Shown: in pieces, positions 6,147 through 53,609 of the stretch
Numbering within the stretch: position 1 is the first letter of the stretch
Layout of the letters: the number at the start of each line of letters is the position of its first letter
Assembly (NCBI GenBank): GCA_034717495.1
Contig: JAYELL010000057.1
Coordinates: 1 to 64,000 of the forward strand
From: Chloroflexota bacterium
GTDB taxonomy: Bacteria > Chloroflexota > Anaerolineae > JAAEKA01
DNA: 64,000 bases
Direction of reading: 5' to 3'
Program-made: the position numbers and the translations under genes
The notes under the pieces: model-generated
What the model saw: the letters and a program-made list of their open reading frames with translations, nothing else
Database searches by the model: none
What the model was told of the DNA's origin: nothing

Positions 6147-8315
6147 TTACGGCTGGGATTCGCTTTTCTCAAACACCAGCAGACCGGCGCTGCTGTCTGC
6201 CACATATAGTTTCCCGGGAACCTGCGGATCGACCACGATGTGGCGAGCGCTTCCTGGCACATCCCCCGCTGCCACCGGCCGCGGCCTGTCGGGGTCGCTC
6301 ACGTCGAGAAGCCAGATGCCCTGCTCGCCCGCCGTAACGTAAACGCCATCGTTGCTGGCGGTGACTCCGATCAAACCGCCAGGCCCGATCATGGAACTGA
6401 TGAGCCGGGGGGTGGCGCGATGACTCAAATCCACGATGTGCAGACCACCGGAACAGATGTCATAATAGCAACTGGCGGTGGCAATATAGGCCAGGTCGCC
6501 CGCCACGGCAATATCCGAGACATCTGCCGGGAGTTCGACCGAACCGACTTCATGAGGCAGCGTGGGATCGCCCAGATCAAATATTCGCAGAATGCCCTTG
6601 TGGCCATCTCCCTGATCAGCACCGCCCCCTGCCAACAGGAACTCAACGGGCCCGCCTGGCACAGACCCGCCCGCCAGGGCAACCTGCCAGAGTTGACCCG
6701 GCACGTCCAGTTTGCTCAGCAATTCAGGTTTCGTCCAATCGGTGACATCCAGCACTCGCAGGCCCGTATCGCCGACAGCTACATACGCCAGTCGTTGCGC
6801 AGGATTGTCGCCGGTGACGGCAACACTGTAACCCGCCCCTTCCATCTCGTCAGCGCTGATTCTGCCTACCCCCTGCGGCTGTGTGGGATCGGACAGATCG
6901 ACAATCTTCAGGCCTTCCTGCCATACCGGCACATAGGCGATGTTATCGATGATCGTGAAGCCACGGGCCCAGCGCATATCATCCAGGCTGCCGATTTGCT
7001 TCGGGGCAGCACCCCAAACCGGTTCGTAGATACTCAGCACACTTTGGGAGGTTCCTGCAGCCAACAGAAGCGGTGTGCCGGGAATGGCGGCGATTTCCGC
7101 CAGGCCACCTGGAAATACCACATCTCCGATAATGGCCAGCTGTTTGGGATCTGAACTATCAACCACCGTTAATCCCGAGTTGGCCGTGTCGACCAGGGCA
7201 CGATCTTCGACCAAAACCAGGGCCGAGTTGGCGCCAGGAAGGCCGAGGATGCCGGCGGATTTCGGCCTGTACGGCTTCGCCATATCGACGGCGATCAGAT
7301 TGGTTCCGCACTGCCCGAACTCGCAGAAGACTTCGGTCGCGAAGACATAGTTTCCATCGACTCCCACGAAGCCGGTGGGCAGGTCTGTCTCGTAAAGGTT
7401 GATCAGCCGGGGATTGGCCGGTTCGCTCAGGTCGTACCATCGAATGCCATCTCCGGCTACGAAGAGGCGGCCTTCGTCCAGGGCCAGGGATCGTGCCCCT
7501 CCGGGTACTTCGATGGTGGCCAGGTCCCGCGGGCGCACCGGATCACCAACGTCGATCACTTCCACGCCTATGCCATGAGCCACGTAGGCCATCCTGCCTG
7601 CCGCAACGACATCATTGGGATAATCGGGCAATTCCGTGGCGCTTAGCAGCGCGGGAGTTTCAGCTTCGGCTATATCGACCAGGTAGAGGCTTCCCTGGCA
7701 GGGGCCGTTCGGGCAGTGACCGCCCGTTACCATCGCCACATCGTATCGAGTGAAAACCTGCAGGGCATCCCGGGGCAGTGGAAACAGGCTCACAAGTTGG
7801 GGCATGGAGTAGATATTGACATCCAGAATAGCCAGCCCGGCCGGGCCTGCAGCGGCGTAGGCATAGCCGTAACCGGGGACATCCAGCCCTTCGATCATCG
7901 CAGGCAGTGGCGGGCTTTCCCCCAGGAGCCGGGGATTGGCAGCATCGTAGTGGTCGATGGTTACCAGGCGCGGACCCACGGCAAGGAAGGAGAGATAGCC
8001 GGTCGCGTCGATGGCCAGGGATTGTCCGCCGACCTGGTCTACCAGGGTCAGCGTGGTTTCCCCCGCCACGATGTTTTGGGCAGAAATCGAGAGCTCTGCC
8101 AGAGGTTGTTGTGTCATCGGCACAGCCGCCGGCTCTGCAACCGTTTCAACCGTCGACCGACCTATGGGGTCGACAATGGGTTCCGGCGCAGGGATGGCGT
8201 AGTCGTACCATGCCGTGCCCGGCGCACAGCCACTCAACAGCGAGATCACCACCAGGATCAGAATCCCGGGGAAAACAGACCGGCGAACAAGATTCCTGTA
8301 GGCTATCACGTTCAT
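6147..8315 (-). CDS. LVIVD-repeat beta-propeller lipoprotein
   Basis: From ATG 8315 the protein has about 722 residues, with a type II signal peptide ending in the lipobox LLSGC (C29). The mature part consists of repeated units such as GVEVIDVGDPVRPRDLATIEVPG, GLKIVDLSDPTQP and GLRVLDVTDWTKPELLS. These are LVIVD repeats, which fold as propeller blades; roughly a dozen can be counted. LVIVD proteins are usually cell-surface proteins of unknown ligand. An upstream ATG at 8336 would also keep the frame, but it would begin only a few bases after the predicted transcription start and lengthen the signal peptide unusually. Neither start has a clear ribosome binding site. It lacks the C-terminal FLP tail of the two neighbouring secreted propeller proteins. 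Confidence 0.85.
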   Translation of the reverse strand: MNVIAYRNLVRRSVFPGILILVVISLLSGCAPGTAWYDYAIPAPEPIVDPIGRSTVETVAEPAAVPMTQQPLAELSISAQNIVAGETTLTLVDQVGGQSLAIDATGYLSFLAVGPRLVTIDHYDAANPRLLGESPPLPAMIEGLDVPGYGYAYAAAGPAGLAILDVNIYSMPQLVSLFPLPRDALQVFTRYDVAMVTGGHCPNGPCQGSLYLVDIAEAETPALLSATELPDYPNDVVAAGRMAYVAHGIGVEVIDVGDPVRPRDLATIEVPGGARSLALDEGRLFVAGDGIRWYDLSEPANPRLINLYETDLPTGFVGVDGNYVFATEVFCEFGQCGTNLIAVDMAKPYRPKSAGILGLPGANSALVLVEDRALVDTANSGLTVVDSSDPKQLAIIGDVVFPGGLAEIAAIPGTPLLLAAGTSQSVLSIYEPVWGAAPKQIGSLDDMRWARGFTIIDNIAYVPVWQEGLKIVDLSDPTQPQGVGRISADEMEGAGYSVAVTGDNPAQRLAYVAVGDTGLRVLDVTDWTKPELLSKLDVPGQLWQVALAGGSVPGGPVEFLLAGGGADQGDGHKGILRIFDLGDPTLPHEVGSVELPADVSDIAVAGDLAYIATASCYYDICSGGLHIVDLSHRATPRLISSMIGPGGLIGVTASNDGVYVTAGEQGIWLLDVSDPDRPRPVAAGDVPGSARHIVVDPQVPGKLYVADSSAGLLVFEKSESQP

Positions 8316-8346
8316 AAAAACAGTTTGCGAGGACATTGGCTGCGCT

Positions 8347-8375
8347 ATTTTAGCATCTCGCCCGATTGCGGGCAA
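8347..8375 (-). promoter_or_regulatory. Promoter for the LVIVD lipoprotein gene
   Basis: On the minus strand TTGCCC (8375-8370), a 17-base spacer and TAAAAT (8352-8347, five of six) form a good sigma-70-like promoter. The -35 overlaps a small GCCCG-CAAT-CGGGC hairpin. Transcription would start near 8340, about 25 bases before ATG 8315. Confidence 0.5.
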
Positions 8376-8400: not shown

Positions 8401-11115
8401 TCACTGTCGCGTGATCAAGGGCAGGAAAACAGAGGGTGCCGGGTCCGGGGCACCGTAGCGCATCATGACTCCCTCGAAACCCACCGCCCAGCCATCGGTT
8501 GCCGAACTCATGGCAATCGAATTCACTCCTCTAGCCGAGGGGGTCTGCGCAGGCACCCATGCGTTTCCGTCGCCGTGCAGCAGCGGCAGCCGGCTGCCGC
8601 CAATCCAGCCTTCCTCAGTATCAACCAGGGTCACCGCCCAAAGGTCGTGATCGCTCGGGCTATCTGCCTTGTGCCAGGCCTGCCCGTCCCACTGCAGGAT
8701 GGTGCCTTCCTGGCCCACGGCCCAGCCATCGTCGGCCTGGTTCATTGCGATGGCTTTCAGGTAGTAACGGCTGGAGGGAACATCAACCGGGGACCAGGCG
8801 TTTCCATCCCAGTGAAACATGTGTTGCCATTCACCTGCACCCCACCTCGAACCAACGATCCAGCCATCCGTGCTGGAGATCATGGCTATCGCACTTCCAC
8901 TGATCTCCTGATCGAAAAGAGACCAGGCAATGCCATCCCATCGAAAAATGCCACCCCTTCCCGCGGCCCAGCCGTCGTCGCTGGACACCATGTCCAACGC
9001 ATAAAGATCTTCAGTAGTGGGGCTCTCGACCTGGCTCCACGATTGCCCATCCCAGTGCAGGATAGTTGAAGAAGGATAATTGCCGCTATAGCCGCCCACG
9101 GCCCAAACATCGTCACTGCTTACCATATCTACGGCGTTTAGTTCATCATCGCCGGGGTTGTCGACTTGAGTCCAGGAGGTGCCATCCCAGTGCAGGATGA
9201 CAGAAGCAGGCCATTCCCCACCCACGGCCCAGCCATCGTCGGGTTCGCCGATGGCGACGCCGTTCAAATCAAGTCCGGTTGCAGTAAAGGCCGGTGCCCA
9301 GGCAATATCCCCCGATTGGGGCACCCGGTGCATGATGATACCGTTTTTTCCAACGGCCCAGCCCATGCCATCGGCCGTGGTCGCAACGGAGTAGAGACTG
9401 TATTGGGATCTGACTGGGAAGGGACTCGTCACCTGAAGCCAACGATTGCCGTCCCAGCGAAGCAGGGCGGGAGAATACCTCAGACTACTCACGGCCCAGC
9501 CCTCGTCAGCATTGACCATGGAAACCGACGTAAGCGACCGGTCAGTAGGACTCTCCACGGGGGTCCACGAACTGCCATCCCAGTGCATGATCGTGCCGTC
9601 TCCGCCCACGGCCCAGCCATCGTCGGCGGAAACCATGAAAACCGAGAGAAGCCCTTCTCCCCAGGTTGGAGCACCGGGCGGCCGCAGCCAGGCGTGACCA
9701 TCCCAGTGGAAGATGGTCATCCCCCCGCCCACGGCCCAGCCATCGTCGGCGGCAACCATGAAAACCGAACTCAGCCGCTTCTGCGAGACCATCTCGAACT
9801 GGGACCAATGGTGACCATCCCAGTGCAAGATCGTGCTCCAGTCACCCACGGCCCAGCCATCATTGGCATCGACCATGGAAACTGAGTACAGGGTCCGGTC
9901 AGTAGGACTCTCCACCAGGTCCCACGAAATGCCATCCCAGTGCAGAATGGTACCTTCTGCGCCCACCGCCCAGCCGTCGTCGGCATCCAGCATGGTGATC
10001 CCATAGAGATCGTGGACGGTTGAACTGGGTACGGCCGTCCACTGGTCGCCGTACCAGTGCAGAATGGTGCCCCCTTCCCCAACCGCCCAGCTCTCGTTTT
10101 CAGAAACAGCTGCCACCGAGTGCAGATCTCTCTTGGTAGGGGAGTCGGGGGGGGTCCAGACCGCGCCATCCCAGTGAAAAGCGCCCTCACCCCCGATAGC
10201 CCAGCCGTCTGAAGCGGAGATCATGGACACATCGTATAACGGTTTGCCGGTCGGGCTGGTGACCTCATCCCAGGCGTGGCCGTCCCAGTGCAGGATGGTG
10301 GTTGTGTTGGAATAACCGCCAACTGCCCAGGCGTCGTCATGGGCGAGAACGGTTACCGATTGCAACAATTCGTCGCTGGGACTGACAACCTCGCTCCAGC
10401 TGGTGCCATCCCAGTGCAGGATGGTGCCAGCTCTCCCGACGGCCCAGCCATCATCCGCCGCGACCATGGACACAGAATACAGCGTATGACCGGTTGGGCT
10501 TGGGAACTCAAGCCAGGCATGGCCGTCCCAGCGCAGCATGGTGCCGTCGTAGCCGGCGATCCAGCCACCCTCTTCCGTCAAAGCAATCGAATTAAGCCTC
10601 CGGGTTGTTGTTGATGCGACCCGCCGCCACCGGTTGCCATCCCAGTGCAGGATGGTGCCCTCGTAGCCCGCGGCCCAGCCGTTGTCAGGATCGGTCATGG
10701 CCACCGAGGTCAGGATTTCGTCGGTGGGGCTGGCGAACCGTTGCCACTCGACTCCGTTCCAGTGGATGATGGTGCCCTCTTCACCCACAGCCCAACTATC
10801 ATCGGCACTCAGCATGGTTATCCCGTACAGGGTCTTGTTGGTTGGACTGGGAACCCGGAACCAGCCAACACCATCCCAATGCTGAATACTGCCTTCGTAG
10901 CCCACGGCCCAACCGTCATCTGGTGAAAGCATGGCGATGGCTTCGCCTCGGCCTGCGGGGCATCGGACTGGCCGGTCAGTTGTCCAACATTGCCAGGCGT
11001 ACGGAGTATCCGCGGTGGGCGCGGACTGGCCAACGGGTGCCGATGCCGCCGGCGGCACATTGACCAGCAGCACAAGGACGAACATCAAGCAGAGCAACGA
11101 GCGGGTCGATTTCAT
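8401..11115 (-). CDS. Secreted 21-repeat DGWAVG/HWDG beta-propeller protein
   Basis: 904 residues from ATG 11115, preceded at seven to eight bases by GGAGGTG. A Sec signal peptide (MKSTRSLLCLMFVLVLLVN, cleavage after ASA) is followed by about 21 tandem copies of a 41-43-residue unit. Its consensus is roughly MVSADDGWAVG..GTILHWDG..W..V.SPT...L.SV. These resemble the WAVG-type BNR/Ycf48-like blades found in large exported Chloroflexota proteins. Twenty-one units would suit three seven-bladed propellers, but that is arithmetic, not a model. The C-terminus ends in SVFLPLITRQ. No catalytic motif is seen; binding of extracellular glycans or proteins is a guess. The next upstream gene encodes another secreted propeller ending 94 bases before this start. 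Confidence 0.85.
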   Translation of the reverse strand: MKSTRSLLCLMFVLVLLVNVPPAASAPVGQSAPTADTPYAWQCWTTDRPVRCPAGRGEAIAMLSPDDGWAVGYEGSIQHWDGVGWFRVPSPTNKTLYGITMLSADDSWAVGEEGTIIHWNGVEWQRFASPTDEILTSVAMTDPDNGWAAGYEGTILHWDGNRWRRVASTTTRRLNSIALTEEGGWIAGYDGTMLRWDGHAWLEFPSPTGHTLYSVSMVAADDGWAVGRAGTILHWDGTSWSEVVSPSDELLQSVTVLAHDDAWAVGGYSNTTTILHWDGHAWDEVTSPTGKPLYDVSMISASDGWAIGGEGAFHWDGAVWTPPDSPTKRDLHSVAAVSENESWAVGEGGTILHWYGDQWTAVPSSTVHDLYGITMLDADDGWAVGAEGTILHWDGISWDLVESPTDRTLYSVSMVDANDGWAVGDWSTILHWDGHHWSQFEMVSQKRLSSVFMVAADDGWAVGGGMTIFHWDGHAWLRPPGAPTWGEGLLSVFMVSADDGWAVGGDGTIMHWDGSSWTPVESPTDRSLTSVSMVNADEGWAVSSLRYSPALLRWDGNRWLQVTSPFPVRSQYSLYSVATTADGMGWAVGKNGIIMHRVPQSGDIAWAPAFTATGLDLNGVAIGEPDDGWAVGGEWPASVILHWDGTSWTQVDNPGDDELNAVDMVSSDDVWAVGGYSGNYPSSTILHWDGQSWSQVESPTTEDLYALDMVSSDDGWAAGRGGIFRWDGIAWSLFDQEISGSAIAMISSTDGWIVGSRWGAGEWQHMFHWDGNAWSPVDVPSSRYYLKAIAMNQADDGWAVGQEGTILQWDGQAWHKADSPSDHDLWAVTLVDTEEGWIGGSRLPLLHGDGNAWVPAQTPSARGVNSIAMSSATDGWAVGFEGVMMRYGAPDPAPSVFLPLITRQ

Positions 11116-11208
11116 GGCGAAACACCTCCAGATGGAAAGAATATGACCTGAATCATGGCGCAATAGCGTGTGACGCGGTAAGCTGGTATTGAACGGCCGG
11201 GACCAACC

Positions 11209-14200
11209 TCACCGGCCGTTGACCACTGGCAGGAACAGATCCTGCGGGCGATAACGCCACAGCTCCCCGCCGTTGGCCCAGTTCCAGGTGCCCAGGTGCA
11301 GACCACCGTCGAAATTGGCGATGGCGTTGGCCCATAGCGTTGCATCGTTGTTGTTGTCGCCGAAGCCCTTGGGACTCATGGGATTCCAGACTGACCCGTC
11401 CGAAGAATGCCACACCTCCAGCCCCGTGGAGAAGTTGGTGGTCACGGCGATCAGTTCGGAGTCGAAGGACAAGAGGGCTTCCACCTTGAAGTTGTCCGGG
11501 TCACCGAAGCCATCGACCATGGTGGGCAGCCAGAGCGATCCATTCGGTGAACGCCATATCTGTCCACCGGTCGAGTCGTTGCGCGTGCTGATATAGAGCC
11601 AGTTGTCGAACAGGGCCATGCTGCCGAAATGGATGTTGTCGGGGTCACCCAGGCCGTTGACGGCAGCCATTTCCCAGCTGGCGCCGTCGTCAGTTCGCCA
11701 CAATTCCGCGCCTTCTGCATTGTTCTCTACCGCAGCATAGAGCTTTTCCTCAAACACGAACAGGTCCGATACCAGGTTGTTGCTGCTATCACCGTTGAAT
11801 CCGGCGGTGACCACCCGTGTCCAGGAGCCGTTGTTTCCTGTGCCGGAACGCCAGATTTCCGCGCCAGAGTCGTTTTGTGTGGCGGCGTAAAGTGTGTCAT
11901 CGAAAACGGCCAGGGCGGTGATGGCGACATTGTCCCCATTGCTAAACCCGTTTTTGACTACCTTGGACCAGGAAGTGCCCGAAAAACTGCGCCATACCTG
12001 AGCGCCTGTGTCGCCCCATCCCGTTGAGGCGTAGAGGTCTCCATGGAACAGTTGCATGTCAACCACGGCGGGTGCTGCCTGGGGATCAGTGAATCCCCAC
12101 TCGCTGGAGGGCAGCCAATCGGATCCGTGCGTTGACTTCCATATCCTGGAGCCCTGTTCCCAGTCGGACGTGGCAGCGAACAGTTGCCCGTCGAAGGGTT
12201 CCAGTGCTGACACCCCGGTGCTCCAACGCTGGCCAAAGCCGTTGATATTGACCTGGACCCAAGAAGGAACGCCGGTCATGAATTTCTGGACGCGGTGATT
12301 CTCCTGGTCCGCCACATAGATAGTGCCAACCTGGTTTGCAGCTACGCCGGCAGGGTTGCGCAACCGCCCTGATCCGGTGCCTGTCTCGCCTCCGATGGTT
12401 GTCAGATAGGCGCCCGTCGCATCGAAGACCTGTACCCTGTTGTTCCATTGGTCGACGGCATACACCCGACCGGCCTGACCCACTGCCACTGCGATGGGAT
12501 GAAGATGGCCGAAATCATCGCTGAAGACGCCGGTTTCACCCGCGAAGGGTCCGCAGTCGTAGGCCTGTCCGTCGGGCAAACACTGCTGTATCCGCTGGTT
12601 GTTGCTGTCGGCAATATAGATGATGCCCTGGCTACTGACGGCGACGCCAGAGGGCCAACGGAAGTGGCTATGGTCAGACCCGGGCTGACCTGTTTCGCCC
12701 AGGGTCAGCCTGTAATTCCAGTTGCTGTCATAGATCTGTACCCGTTCGTTGCAGCGATCCGCCACCAGGATATCGTCGTTGGTTGGGTTGATGGCAACCC
12801 CGCTGGGGCAGTTGAACTGCTGGTTACCCGTGCCCTGCCCGCCGACGCTCTGATTGAAGGATCCGTCGGAGTTGAACACCTGGACGCGATGGTTGGTGGT
12901 ATCAGAGATATAAGCGCGGCCTGTTGCATCAATCCCCACGTTGCCCTCAGGCCCGCCCCAGTAGTCGCCAAAGTGTTCATTGTCGTCGCCAAAGATGCCC
13001 GCTTCCCCCGCCGCCCACAGCGTCAGGCCATCAGAATCCAGCTTGACCATGCGGTAGCCCGGGTTTTCCAATACGAAGAGCTTGCCATCCGCCCCGGTGC
13101 CTACACCCCACGGCCCATTGAAGTGGGACTGGTCGACGGCGTAGGGTATGCCACCGGTGCCGGCGAAAATGGCCAACAATGTCCCGCCATGGCTGTACTT
13201 GCGGATCGTGTGGGCCTGCAGGTCGCCAATGAAGATATTACCGAACGAATCCGCCACAATGTCGCCCGGCCAGATCATCTCGCTGGCAAAGCTGGTGCAG
13301 TTGCCCGCCGGCGTACAGCGTTTGACGCGCCCGTTGCCTGTATCGGCGATGAACAGGTTGTCGTTGTTATCGATTCCGATTCCCAGGACAAAATCCAGGG
13401 TGTCGACCCCGTTGCCTTGGCTACCGGTGCCGTGGAATGTGGTGCAGGTCCACGCCCCGGCCAGGACACAGCGTTGAACGCGGTAGTTATCGGTATCTGC
13501 TACGTACAATTGGTCGGCGCTGTCCAGAACGATCTGAGAGGGCAGGTTGAAGTGAGCGGAGTCGCTGCCTGGCTCCCCGGTCACACCAATGGTAGCTACA
13601 TGGCCTGGCGTTCCGCCCGATAACGAATAGACCTGCACGCGATGATTTCCGGAGTCCGCCACGTACATCTGGCCCGTGCTGTCAAAGGCAACGCCGCGCG
13701 GATAACGGAACCGGCTATTGGAACTGCCGGGCGTCCAGGGGCTGCTTGATGGGAAAGTTTGAAGCGGACTGCCATTGGCATCGAACTGCCGTAGTGCCGA
13801 AGCGGCCACGATCCAGATCGATTCATCGCTGTCCAGGGCGACATCTTCCGGTGTTGCCAACAGGTCGTCGTCGAATCCCGGTTGGCCTGCCTGACCGATA
13901 GACAAGGTTTTTATTCCTGCAGCGTCGAATTTCTGCATCCGAAAGCCTGCTTCCTCGACGACATAGATGGCCCCTGTGTCGTCGATCGTCATGCCCATCG
14001 GGCGGTTCAGATGCAAGGAGTCAACATGATAGGGTGAGCCTGTTGTTCCCAGGGTTTCCAGGTAGCTGAAACTGAGCCCAGGATCACCCAGGCTAACGGT
14101 GGTTGCCCGGGATTCCGGCAGGTTTTTCAGGTTCAATGGAGGCTGCCAGGGGTATTCCCGTTCGTCGACCGGATCGGTCGCGACCAGATCAAGGTCTTCT

Positions 14201-14307
14201 TCGGGCGAGTGGTCCGGCATCGGCGCTTGGGCAAGCACTGGTGCACTGCCCGCCAACAGGAATACCACTGTGGATAAAATGAGAGAAAGATTTGTTTGAA
14301 AGTTCAT
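11209..14307 (-). CDS. Secreted NHL-repeat / BNR-like beta-propeller protein
   Basis: 1032 residues from ATG 14307 with an excellent GGAGGATTGGC ribosome binding site. The signal peptide MNFQTNLSLILSTVVFLLAG ends at VLAQA. Residues of about 50-670 contain a dozen or more NHL blades (typified by VAFDSTGQMYVADSGNHRVQ and GVAVSSQGIIYIADSNNQRI). The last third switches to a second repeat of about 50 residues with cores like GAEIWRSGTG and LYAATQNDSG, similar to BNR/sialidase-type propellers. The protein ends in DLFLPVVNGR, matching the tail of the downstream DGWAVG protein. NHL proteins scaffold protein, RNA or glycan binding; the target here is unknown. It heads the three-gene propeller block and has its own promoter. 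Confidence 0.87.
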   Translation of the reverse strand: MNFQTNLSLILSTVVFLLAGSAPVLAQAPMPDHSPEEDLDLVATDPVDEREYPWQPPLNLKNLPESRATTVSLGDPGLSFSYLETLGTTGSPYHVDSLHLNRPMGMTIDDTGAIYVVEEAGFRMQKFDAAGIKTLSIGQAGQPGFDDDLLATPEDVALDSDESIWIVAASALRQFDANGSPLQTFPSSSPWTPGSSNSRFRYPRGVAFDSTGQMYVADSGNHRVQVYSLSGGTPGHVATIGVTGEPGSDSAHFNLPSQIVLDSADQLYVADTDNYRVQRCVLAGAWTCTTFHGTGSQGNGVDTLDFVLGIGIDNNDNLFIADTGNGRVKRCTPAGNCTSFASEMIWPGDIVADSFGNIFIGDLQAHTIRKYSHGGTLLAIFAGTGGIPYAVDQSHFNGPWGVGTGADGKLFVLENPGYRMVKLDSDGLTLWAAGEAGIFGDDNEHFGDYWGGPEGNVGIDATGRAYISDTTNHRVQVFNSDGSFNQSVGGQGTGNQQFNCPSGVAINPTNDDILVADRCNERVQIYDSNWNYRLTLGETGQPGSDHSHFRWPSGVAVSSQGIIYIADSNNQRIQQCLPDGQAYDCGPFAGETGVFSDDFGHLHPIAVAVGQAGRVYAVDQWNNRVQVFDATGAYLTTIGGETGTGSGRLRNPAGVAANQVGTIYVADQENHRVQKFMTGVPSWVQVNINGFGQRWSTGVSALEPFDGQLFAATSDWEQGSRIWKSTHGSDWLPSSEWGFTDPQAAPAVVDMQLFHGDLYASTGWGDTGAQVWRSFSGTSWSKVVKNGFSNGDNVAITALAVFDDTLYAATQNDSGAEIWRSGTGNNGSWTRVVTAGFNGDSSNNLVSDLFVFEEKLYAAVENNAEGAELWRTDDGASWEMAAVNGLGDPDNIHFGSMALFDNWLYISTRNDSTGGQIWRSPNGSLWLPTMVDGFGDPDNFKVEALLSFDSELIAVTTNFSTGLEVWHSSDGSVWNPMSPKGFGDNNNDATLWANAIANFDGGLHLGTWNWANGGELWRYRPQDLFLPVVNGR

Positions 14308-14400
14308 GCCAATCCTCCTGGTCCGGCATCGATCGCCGATCCGGATCGGTCCCGGACCTATGGTGCCGGGTCCATTGCTCTGGGCACAGGCCATAGGGGT

Positions 14401-14430
14401 AGTATATACGCTGCCTGTTTCTGCAAGCAA
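14401..14430 (-). promoter_or_regulatory. Promoter for the NHL propeller gene
   Basis: Minus strand TTGCTT (14430-14425), an 18-base spacer, and TATACT (14406-14401, five of six matches). The start would be near 14394, giving a leader of about 87 bases. The rest of the 14308-14631 intergenic region holds no other clear signal except an isolated TATAAT at 14580-14585 facing the LLM oxidoreductase, with no good -35. Confidence 0.5.
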
Positions 14431-27054: not shown

Positions 27055-27996
27055 CTATCTTTCTATCCACCGGGGGAAGAACATGCGAATTTCTCCCTCG
27101 ACGGTGTGGTCCCAGCTATCGGATACCTGATTGCCGCCAGAGTCGACCAGGACAGATCTGTACTGACCAGGAGTAGTGCCGGGGATCTCGACCTTGCAGT
27201 TGTAGCGGAATTCGCTGCCCGCGATGCCAGGATAACCGATTTCCTGGAACTCCGTGCACATCTTTTCTCCGTTAAGCGGACCCTGCACCAGCAGCTTCAC
27301 ATTGCCTACTACAGCGCTCTTGTTGCGGTTCAGGACCATGCCGTAGAAGGTCAAAAAAGGGTTGGAGTTATCCCTTGGCGTACTGTTTTCGTACTTGTTG
27401 AAGAGATAGGAGGGCGCCGGCGTTGGCGCTGGTGCCGGTGTATTGGTCGGCGGCACCGGCCTGGGTGTGTTGGTTGGTGGGGGTGGCGCAATGTTGGTCG
27501 CAACCTGGACCCCATCGACGTTGCCCTGAACATTGGCCAGACGGGAAACGATCCAACCATCCTTGCCGTTTACGCAGCAAACCTGCCACCAGTCATTGGC
27601 ATTGTTGCGCCCAATGATCTCCAGTTCGCTGCCGGAGGAAATCTGGCCGACTACCGGATAAGCGGTGCCTGGCCCGGAACGAACGTTGACCCGACCCGAA
27701 CCAGCGACGATCGCTACCGGACCGCTCTCCGGCGTGGGCGTGGGCGGCACGGGTGTCTCAGTTGGTGGTTCGGCGGGTGTATCGGTCGGTACCGGAGTCG
27801 GAGGGACCTCCGGAATCGCTGTTGCAGGAACTGGCGTTTGTGTTTCGATCGCCAGCGGCGTTGGGGTAAAGGTAGGCCGCAGCGGCCGGTTCAAGGTTGG
27901 GGCCGGCTCCGGTTCGGCCGACGATCCGCACGATACGGAAGCGACCAATAAGAATATCAAGGTCAGAAATATCGGTAAACGATGTCTTGTGAGCAT
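27055..27996 (-). CDS. SH3-domain lipoprotein with proline/threonine-rich linkers
   Basis: 313 residues from ATG 27996 (GGAGGAACG upstream). A signal peptide ends in the lipobox VASVSC (C23). A long low-complexity linker rich in TPTP, PVPPTPTPES and TDTPAEPP follows, then a bacterial SH3-type 3 domain (GRVNVRSGPGTAYPVVGQIS, ELEIIGRNNANDWWQV, GWIVSRLA). A second PPTNTP linker leads to a C-terminal beta-rich domain of about 110 residues (SNPFLTFYGMVLNRN, GEFRYNCKVEI-like) resembling Ig-like/FxLYD folds. The SH3 domain probably binds peptidoglycan or surface polymers; the function of the C-terminal domain is unknown. This linker style is very common in Chloroflexota surface proteins. Confidence 0.88.
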   Translation of the reverse strand: MLTRHRLPIFLTLIFLLVASVSCGSSAEPEPAPTLNRPLRPTFTPTPLAIETQTPVPATAIPEVPPTPVPTDTPAEPPTETPVPPTPTPESGPVAIVAGSGRVNVRSGPGTAYPVVGQISSGSELEIIGRNNANDWWQVCCVNGKDGWIVSRLANVQGNVDGVQVATNIAPPPPTNTPRPVPPTNTPAPAPTPAPSYLFNKYENSTPRDNSNPFLTFYGMVLNRNKSAVVGNVKLLVQGPLNGEKMCTEFQEIGYPGIAGSEFRYNCKVEIPGTTPGQYRSVLVDSGGNQVSDSWDHTVEGEIRMFFPRWIER

Positions 27997-51477: not shown

Positions 51478-51728
51478 TTTCGTCTGCAAGTCACTGCGAC
51501 GCTACGCCAGCAGGCGCGTACCGTGAGGTAAGGCCACCGAGAGGTGTGAGCGAGCCAGCCGAGGCTTGGTGCAGGTGTTGCTTCGGCCCGAACCCTGGTC
51601 CCTAAGAAACTCGCCAAGATCGGCAGGCACCCTGAGCCGGTCCGGAGCTTGCGAGGGACCGTGTCGAAGGGCGCCGCCTGTATCATCGCAAGTGCGATAG
51701 GAGATAGCTGAATGTGGGAGTTGATTAC
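51478..51728. other. Intergenic region with degenerate repeat sequence
   Basis: No gene is seen between the helicase and the subtilase. The stretch 51630-51680 (CCTGAGCCGGTCCGGAGCTTGCGAGGGACCGT in pieces, then GTCGAAGGGCGCC) resembles, in inverted orientation, the CTCGACAAGCTCGGGACACG segment at about 24576-24600. I see no clear promoter or terminator. Confidence 0.35.
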
Positions 51729-53609
51729 ATGAGCGGGCAGATGATCAAAAAAACGACCATGGGTTTCCTGCTGGCTTCCCTGCTACTGCTGGCCGGCCCC
51801 CTGCCCCAGCGCTCGTCGGCCCGCGTCACCATCCCGGCGACGGGCGGGAGCGCTTCCCGCGGTGACCAGGATCGCTGGCAGGACAAGGTGGTACCCGACT
51901 TGTTGGCGGACACGGCCGGCGGGGAGCGGGCCAGCTTTCTGGTGATCATGGCAGCCCAGGCCGAACTGGGTCACGCCGACCGTTACCTCGACAAGGATGA
52001 CAGGAGCCGCTTCGTCTACGAAAGGCTGACCCGTACGGCGCTGGCCAGCCAGAAGCCGCTGCAGGCCTGGCTGGACCGCCGGGACATCCCCTATCGATCC
52101 CACTACCTGATCAACATGCTGGCCGTCGAGGGGGACCAGGGGGTGCTGGAGGCGTTGGCGCGCCGGGCCGACATCGCCCAGATCCGGGCCAACCGGGCCG
52201 CGCCCGGCATTCCGCCGGCCGAAAGGATCGCCCCCGATCTCCAGGCACCGGGCCTTTTCAGTTTCGACGGGATGGCGACTCCCCGGACGCCCGATAGCCC
52301 ATCCAACACCGAATGGGGAGTCGATTTCGTCAACGCGCCCGCTGTGTGGAGCACCTACGGCATCCGGGGCGAAGGAATCGTCGTTGCCAACAACGACACC
52401 GGGGTAGACTGGGACCATCCTGCCCTGATCGGTGCCTATCGCGGCTGGGACGGCACGTCGGCGGACCACAACTACAACTGGTTCGATCCCTTTGGCGGCG
52501 ATGTTGATTGCCCCGATCCGACGGTGCCCTGCGATGACCATGGCCATGGCACCCATACCAACGGCAGTGCGGTGGGTGACGACGGCGGCGACAACCAGAT
52601 CGGGGTCGCGCCCGGGGCCCAATGGATCGGCTGTCGCAACATGGACAGCGGGGTCGGTACCCCCGAGTCCTATACCAGTTGTTTCGAGTTCCTGCTGGCC
52701 CCCTTTCCGCCCGGAGGAGATCCCCTGACCCAGGGCAATCCAGACCTGGGCGCCCATATTGTCAATAATTCCTGGGGTTGTCCCCCCAGCGAGGGGTGTG
52801 ATCACTTCACCCTGCGCCAGGTGGTGCAAAACGTGCGGACCGCAGGCGTGTTGGTCGTTGCTTCGGCCGGCAATAACGGGTCCGCCTGCACCAGTGTGCT
52901 CTATCCGATCGGTACCTACGATGCCAGCTTCACTGTGGGCAACGTCAACTCGTCCGGGACCATTGCCGGCAACAGCAGCCGTGGGCCGGTGGAGTTCAAC
53001 GGTACGGATATCGCCAAGCCGGATATCTCCGCGCCGGGCACCAATGTCCGGTCTTCAAGGCCAGGCGGCTACGGCTTTGCTTCAGGCACCTCGATGGCCG
53101 CGCCTCATGTGGCTGGCACTGCCGCGCTGCTCTGGTCAGCTGAACCGGAATTGATCGGCCAGATCGGCGCGACCGAGTATATCCTGACCCAGACGGCCGA
53201 TCATGTGGCATCCACCGCCTGTGGTTCCGATGGTGTGCCCAACAACACCTACGGCTGGGGCTATGTGGATGCGCTGGCCGCGGTGCAGGCAGTCCTGGAG
53301 CCGGCCCAGGTGACGGGGCAGGTCACCGAGAGCCAGTTCCGCTGCGACCCCAGCGCCACCGCCCTGGTGCCGGGCGCCCAGCTTACCTTTGAACACGCCT
53401 GGCTGGAGGATGTGACCATCGTTGTCGCCGTCGATGGGACCTTCGCCACCACCCTGGCGCCCGGCCGTTACACGGTGAGCATGGTCGATCCCGCGGGCAA
53501 CGAGTCGCCCGATTATACCGTCTGGCTGCTGGGCAACCGCGACAACCCCCTCGTTTTCTCTCCCATGGCCTGCCAGTTTTTACCAGAGCTGAATGGCGCG
53601 GAATCCTGA
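51729..53609 (+). CDS. Secreted subtilisin-family (S8) serine protease
   Basis: 626 residues from ATG 51729 (GGGAG eight bases upstream). A Sec signal peptide (IKKTTMGFLLASLLLLAG, cleaved near SSA) is followed by an I9-type propeptide (ASFLVIMAAQAELGHADRY). The catalytic domain has D223 in VVANNDTGVDWDHP, H273 in DDHGHGTHTNG and S454 in ASGTSMAAPHVAGT, with VVASAGNNGS for the oxyanion asparagine. A short beta domain follows (VTGQVTESQFRC, TVSMVDPAGNESPDYTVW) and the protein ends FLPELNGAES, similar to the FLP tails of the propeller proteins. It is presumably an extracellular, broad protein-degrading enzyme. Single gene, no obvious partner. Confidence 0.94.
   Translation: MSGQMIKKTTMGFLLASLLLLAGPLPQRSSARVTIPATGGSASRGDQDRWQDKVVPDLLADTAGGERASFLVIMAAQAELGHADRYLDKDDRSRFVYERLTRTALASQKPLQAWLDRRDIPYRSHYLINMLAVEGDQGVLEALARRADIAQIRANRAAPGIPPAERIAPDLQAPGLFSFDGMATPRTPDSPSNTEWGVDFVNAPAVWSTYGIRGEGIVVANNDTGVDWDHPALIGAYRGWDGTSADHNYNWFDPFGGDVDCPDPTVPCDDHGHGTHTNGSAVGDDGGDNQIGVAPGAQWIGCRNMDSGVGTPESYTSCFEFLLAPFPPGGDPLTQGNPDLGAHIVNNSWGCPPSEGCDHFTLRQVVQNVRTAGVLVVASAGNNGSACTSVLYPIGTYDASFTVGNVNSSGTIAGNSSRGPVEFNGTDIAKPDISAPGTNVRSSRPGGYGFASGTSMAAPHVAGTAALLWSAEPELIGQIGATEYILTQTADHVASTACGSDGVPNNTYGWGYVDALAAVQAVLEPAQVTGQVTESQFRCDPSATALVPGAQLTFEHAWLEDVTIVVAVDGTFATTLAPGRYTVSMVDPAGNESPDYTVWLLGNRDNPLVFSPMACQFLPELNGAES

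Follow-up and report, generated by a model that had tools for sequence, protein, structure and literature searches.

The window analysed here, 64,000 nucleotides of Chloroflexota DNA (contig JAYELL010000057.1 of assembly GCA_034717495.1), encodes three secreted proteins that end in a short tail built around Phe-Leu-Pro (FLP), and this tail is the subject of the present study. The original prediction held that it resembles a sorting or anchoring signal borne only by exported, non-lipidated proteins. The first of the three, encoded by an open reading frame (ORF) at 8401..11163 (-), is a PSII_BNR/Ycf48-type repeat protein of 920 amino acids (the BNR protein; Pfam PF14870) with a rule-based signal peptide; its tail, SVFLPLITRQ-COOH, lies at 8404..8436 (-), with a match to the NCBIfam model NF050076 at C57:8407-8433. 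The second ORF, at 11209..14430 (-), specifies an NHL-repeat protein (Pfam NHL) with a C-terminal beta-propeller, 1073 amino acids long when counted from the first start. Its signal peptide, read from the N-terminus, starts at an internal Met (MNFQTNLSLILSTVVFLLAG...), and its tail, DLFLPVVNGR-COOH, lies at 11212..11241 (-). The third protein is a secreted subtilase (S8, 631 amino acids; ORF and Pfam match at 51714..53609 (+)) with the C-terminus CQFLPELNGAES. The ends claimed for all three proteins are exact in the translated ORFs, confirming the observation from which the prediction set out.

Two lipoproteins of the window provide a contrast: an LVIVD protein encoded next to the BNR protein (ORF and Pfam match, 6147..8375 (-)) that ends in VFEKSESQP, and an SH3 protein (ORF, 27055..27996 (-)) that ends in RMFFPRWIER. 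As had been claimed, neither carries FLP, the latter having FFP near its C-terminus.

The tail on exported proteins

We searched for [FY]LPxx within the last 12 residues, the test that the original prediction had proposed, in 1.253 Mb, or 25%, of the genome to which the window belongs (window included) and in 0.4 Mb apiece from two further genomes of the phylum. ORFs were called, and signal peptides were assigned with a simple home-made rule, which missed the window's own NHL protein. In these stretches the motif is indeed enriched on exported proteins: in the own genome it ends 7/78 predicted Sec-exported non-lipoproteins vs. 8/877 of the remaining ORFs (p = 7e-5), and the pooled counts for the three genomes are 11/133 vs. 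11/1467 (p = 2.8e-7). Its position is also particular, as 11 of the 133 exported proteins have it in the last-12 window and zero to two in each of 19 windows upstream. None of the 58 predicted lipoproteins in the pooled stretches ends this way (p = 0.016 vs. exported). An enrichment on exported free proteins is thereby supported; one tail-like end, YLPLVVS, stands on a predicted lipoprotein at locus L143.

The 11 matching ORFs outside the exported class are a mixed group. Two are exported proteins whose signal peptides the rule missed (our 11209-14430 and one in genome G066), one is a truncated subtilase (genome G109), and one is an own-genome ORF of 137 amino acids, possibly a fragment of a secreted protein, that ends in YLPLVAKGYVP. 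The other seven, as we read their ends, lack a pair of hydrophobic residues behind the Pro and look like chance matches.

Further tails in the window's own genome belong to an RCC1 protein (C38:71667-74504, VFLPLAESR), a BNR+CBM9 protein in which the tail KLYLPIILK follows a low-complexity linker, PTPTATPTLRKLYLPIILK (C2:83343-86105), a CBM9 protein (C31:34585-35370, LYLPIISAQ), a leucine-rich-repeat protein (C31:35548-39468, NIFLPLLLR), and the product of C1:278302-279819 (KVFLPGIEVDH). Genes for tailed proteins often adjoin, as at 8401-14430 in the window, G000:C31:34585-39468 in the same genome, and loci L142 and L146.

Might three unrelated ends in the window simply happen to hold FLP? The loose [FY]LPxx ends on 8/877 non-exported or uncalled own-genome ORFs would fit such an explanation, as would the unconserved tail of the subtilase and the scores of the window tails, which miss the NCBIfam cut-off. 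However, the NHL tail is conserved in homologues (see below), the own-genome enrichment is unlikely to be accidental (p = 7e-5), and additional own-genome tails are perfect (FLPLLLR, YLPIILK). We consider chance resemblance very improbable as a general account. For the two propeller proteins it has largely been ruled out; the subtilase tail is indistinguishable from chance.

The anatomy of the tail was examined in 54 distinct tailed ORFs from at least nine genomes, a set in which the loci derived from pattern searches are biased toward tails ending in Arg. The consensus is [VI]-[YF]-L-P-[LIVM]-[VI]-x-R-COOH. Position -8, which the pattern leaves free, is V, I or T in 46/54, and position -9 is mostly polar. 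A signal peptide was called in 37 of the ORFs and a lipobox in one, with no call for 16 (some of them cut off at the end of the locus); by comparison, there were 133 signal peptides among the 1600 ORFs of the unbiased stretches. A low-complexity stretch precedes the tail in 5/54, and a transmembrane-like stretch occurs within the last 40 residues of 1/54. The proteins themselves are diverse: Pfam domains were recognised in 49 of the 54 and belong to 123 families, no one of which is found in more than five proteins, and the families include peptidases (S8, C11, M23), amidase, beta-helix, FG-GAP, PKD, SdrD_B, CARDB and PA14. Since these domains are unrelated, the tail is a separate module, placed on hydrolases and adhesin-like proteins. 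One protein of an order relative (G003; L030, 1234-2571 (-)) carries the box twice, internally as VFLPLVMQRG, some 50 residues short of the C-terminus, and terminally as VYLPLVFASP. Near another tailed protein, G066:C40:94366-96714, N-termini read by eye resemble a sugar transferase and a Wzz-like chain-length protein; this is perhaps a polysaccharide locus.

Distribution and named models

Across genomes, we counted a strict DNA pattern, [FY]-L-P-hydrophobic-[VIAMT]-x-[RS]-stop, and used the same pattern read backwards as the control. The 120 genomes of the window's class hold 481 matches vs. 92 in the control, and one genome alone accounts for 65 vs. 0. Among 151 genomes of the phylum the matches are concentrated in certain families, with 28 vs. 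3 in G066, 21 vs. 1 in G029, 17 vs. 1 in G017, 17 vs. 2 in G075 and 10 vs. 0 in G109; families f77, f68, f4 and f19 are rich in the tail, and f2, f14 and f17 are poor in it. Fourteen of the 151, picked by eye on this very count (at least four matches and at most three in the control), make up a tail-rich set with 144 matches vs. 15. An exact scan for Y-L-P-L-V-V-R-TAG, with most codons free, through the genomes of 84,980 species returned 20 loci, 19 of which lie in Chloroflexota records, Viridilinea and Aquidulcis among them. The twentieth (L171, CALFVI010000026.1) is titled Elioraea sp.; its last 19 residues are the same as those of a Roseiflexus locus, and because of this identity it has probably been mis-binned into a public genome. 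Allowing for this one contig, all loci of the scan belong to Chloroflexota. The link between YLPL tails and this phylum, mentioned in the original prediction, is borne out by these loci and by the excess in the phylum and class sets.

The accompanying remark that no named system is known is outdated. Hmmscan against NCBIfam release 20.0 (E ≤ 1) places NF050076, "sort_motif_YLP", in 22 of 49 tailed Chloroflexota proteins and NF053834, "ultrashort_CTERM", in 12; both entries bear the description "YLP-box putative sorting motif-containing protein", so the box had already been noticed by NCBI curators. We found no paper on the YLP-box or on a Chloroflexota C-terminal sorting signal in open-access full text. 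Like the window tails, the YLP-box is a short motif at the extreme C-terminus of large exported proteins; the window tails differ, in a comparison based on the models' names, lengths and cut-offs, in being F-forms that score below the cut-off. NF050076 has 11 positions and a cut-off of 15 bits. The BNR tail reaches 13.3 bits, the joint best of the whole genome, and the NHL and subtilase tails go unreported at E ≤ 10; the L030 protein of the order relative exceeds the cut-off (19.7 bits). Without regard to position this model is unspecific, with matches in 12 of 14 control genomes at E ≤ 10 and over the cut-off in two. Current models miss the F-form of the window's lineage, which is of consequence for annotation.

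Conservation, exchange and structure

The C-terminal domains of nine NHL proteins, 33–43% identical to the window's, were aligned, and six of the nine, counting the window's, terminate in the box: WRYRPQDLFLPVVNGR (own), WKYLHNRVYLPRLDVE, WAYQPASVWLPVAARQ, WAYQPTSVYLPVGLR, WLQLDQTVFLPVALR and WKYLHNRIYLPKLDVE. Five homologous proteins, from four genomes of the order, keep the tail as [VI][YFW]LP; what is retained is LP and the preceding aromatic residue, and the last residues drift. The other homologues end differently. By eye, the corresponding position in L219 is taken by a dockerin-like end, for which Pfam gives no support at E ≤ 0.01 and the flexitail model NF041520 scores below its cut-off; L222 and L223 continue into another domain. 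The BNR protein has no orthologue in five relatives of the order, and its sole relative, a paralogue in its own genome, is tailed as well.

Subtilase homologues close with RRR after a hydrophobic stretch (L237, L238, L242) or with a dockerin-like module (L253), and given these varied ends the family swaps its C-terminal module freely. The hydrophobic-RRR ends, for which NCBIfam has no name, run P-[ST]-A-V-x-L-S-G-[LF]... before the hydrophobic stretch; L242 comes from the window's own genome. These ends look like a tripartite sorting signal. The closest orthologue of the window subtilase (L236, 55% identity) ends in CWFFPRSERAR. The subtilase, named as a tail bearer in the original prediction, is exported and does have FLP near its end, but its case is weak and compatible with chance, given this orthologue and the roughly 1% of non-exported ORFs with such an end; FLPELNGAES is a doubtful box. 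FFP ends recur in the lineage on exported or lipidated proteins: RMFFPRWIER at 27055-27996 (-), the L236 end, and VFFPVVGVVMANR at G000:C57:81295-83682 (+). They may represent a degenerate box or chance. Taken with the NHL family, the exchanges support the notion that the tail behaves as an exchangeable C-terminal module.

An AlphaFold2 model of the window's NHL C-terminal propeller, computed with eight homologues, has a mean predicted local distance difference test score (pLDDT) of 86.9 and a predicted template modelling score of 0.87. The tail, residues 364-373, has a pLDDT below 50; as modelled, it dangles outside a confidently predicted propeller. A structure search confirmed the beta-propeller and yielded nothing further. 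For the BNR end, a poor single-sequence model (66.2, with the tail near 28) agrees with a free tail. These models bear on the idea that the tail is a structural element, the closing beta-strand of a C-terminal domain shared by these proteins, and no signal at all. Many tails do come directly after immunoglobulin-like or propeller domains and show a strand-like alternation. However, the tailed proteins span 123 Pfam families, 5/54 tails follow a low-complexity linker (as does that of C2:83343-86105), and in the NHL model the tail stands outside the fold. A purely structural role is accordingly one to which we assign little likelihood.

Possible readers and function of the tail

Named C-terminal sorting signals are, according to PMC11980579, tripartite, consisting of a motif, a transmembrane helix at which the protein is halted, and a basic cluster. 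The pairs LPXTG/sortase, PEP-CTERM/exosortase, PGF-CTERM/archaeosortase, GlyGly-CTERM/rhombosortase and MYXO-CTERM/myxosortase share with the YLP tail a C-terminal position, Sec export, attachment to unrelated domains, many substrates per genome, and frequent placement after a disordered linker. In contrast to their three parts, the YLP tail is a motif alone, with one terminal Arg and a helix in 1/54; the transmembrane stretch and basic cluster that follow a PEP-CTERM motif do not follow it. The C-terminal domain of type IX secretion is likewise an address at the C-terminus of Sec-exported proteins, but it folds and spans about 80 residues, as opposed to the eight of the YLP tail.

Co-occurrence with known machinery was assessed in the 151 phylum genomes, with no correction for kinship. 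Sortase is present in 14/14 tail-rich genomes vs. 91/137 others (p = 0.005, kinship uncorrected), and the window's own genome has one. A membrane-free sortase substrate is thus conceivable: one of a genome's sortases would read the LP core, cut after it, and join the protein to the wall without a hydrophobic stretch. L-P is the core of LPXTG too (PMC11980579). On the other hand, sortase is equally frequent in a tail-poor family (f2, one to five copies), so that its presence does not discriminate, and genome G042 has a single weak match. Nor does the YLP tail have T/S-G after LPx, a hydrophobic stretch or a basic cluster; LPXTG substrates are defined by LPXT[GA], a transmembrane stretch and a basic cluster, and the window tails end 4–7 residues past LP. 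We regard this explanation as unlikely.

Exosortase is uncommon, occurring in 14/151 phylum genomes and in 1/14 tail-rich ones, and was rejected as a general reader on that ground. The own genome does encode one (G000:C69:1458-2222; L205:1458-2222 (+)), which scores 164.7 bits against TIGR02602, above the cut-off, with the nearest named type, XrtA, below its own cut-off. Secretin was detected in 1/151 genomes (G016, contamination 8), and a secretin-based (type II) route was likewise rejected as the general one. SprA_N was found in 0/151, but the control genomes were silent as well.

The tail could also be a stability cap, in which Pro and a C-terminal Arg resist exopeptidases, or a tag for release or trafficking through an atypical outer layer. 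The position at the extreme C-terminus suits both, and Chloroflexales are described in PMC7332563 as having an unusual multilayer envelope. A cap, however, has no need of the [YF]-L-P-[LIVM]-[VI] core; exchange with dockerin-like and hydrophobic-RRR ends fits retention better; and secretin is absent from 150/151 genomes. We doubt these functions as much as we do the sortase hypothesis.

The explanation that we favour, with a probability of roughly 0.6, is that the tail is a membrane-free C-terminal address that would keep Sec-exported proteins at the envelope through a dedicated reader. The observations behind it are enrichment, extreme C-terminal position, domain independence, conservation among orthologues, module exchange and restriction to Chloroflexota. 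The tailed protein would be exported by Sec and its signal peptide removed; the free end, [VI]-[YF]-L-P-[LIVM]-[VI]-x-R, would hang off the last domain or a linker, apart from the fold; and a receptor or enzyme on the outer membrane face or in the envelope would recognise it. As the motif stands alone with no helix, the protein would have to leave the membrane before or during recognition. It would then be held, either by non-covalent capture of the tail as a beta-strand or by a covalent link made once the tail is trimmed, and would not diffuse away. Capture at the envelope is judged most likely because homologues swap the tail for other C-terminal modules and because predicted lipoproteins, already anchored, do not carry it.

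Several points weigh against this explanation. Retention at the envelope is what we infer, and its reader was not found: the search for a co-occurring peptidase or secretion machinery, which covered exosortase, sortase, secretin and SprA in the 151 genomes, identified no partner. The YLP tail, unlike characterised C-terminal sorting signals, has no transmembrane stretch. Matches to the strict DNA pattern do not outnumber the control in the window's own genome (2 vs. 3). A loose DNA pattern gives no excess there either (73+101 vs. 99+74), because out-of-frame matches swamp the signal; the in-frame analysis took its place. With 15 matches vs. 6 in five order genomes of the class set, and 2 vs. 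3 in the own genome, the window's lineage is therefore a weak, diverged user. The window tails are F-forms, looser past the Pro, with the final Arg not fixed, and the lineage as a whole is loose in the final Arg and the post-Pro hydrophobic residues (VNGR, LDVE, SAQ); its box may be decaying or doing something simpler. The window's organism has, then, a diluted form of a signal common in Chloroflexota. On the sum of this evidence, the original prediction is partly supported; the sorting or anchoring role that it assigned to the tail is putative.

A broader proposal, to which we give somewhat less than even odds, is that Chloroflexota have a new kind of sorting, in which an eight-residue membrane-free address is read outside the cell by a receptor or transpeptidase, serves tens of surface proteins per genome, and, over evolution, trades places with dockerin-like and tripartite signals. 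EpsH was reportedly sought for PEP-CTERM by phylogenetic profiling, and the same route is open for the reader of the YLP tail. Chloroflexota include filamentous phototrophs, predators, and sludge and hot-spring bacteria, and their envelope is poorly understood. If the tail is an address, the phylum would have a sorting signal that does without the membrane helix required by the C-terminal systems described so far, and an eight-residue peptide of this kind would make a handy display tag.

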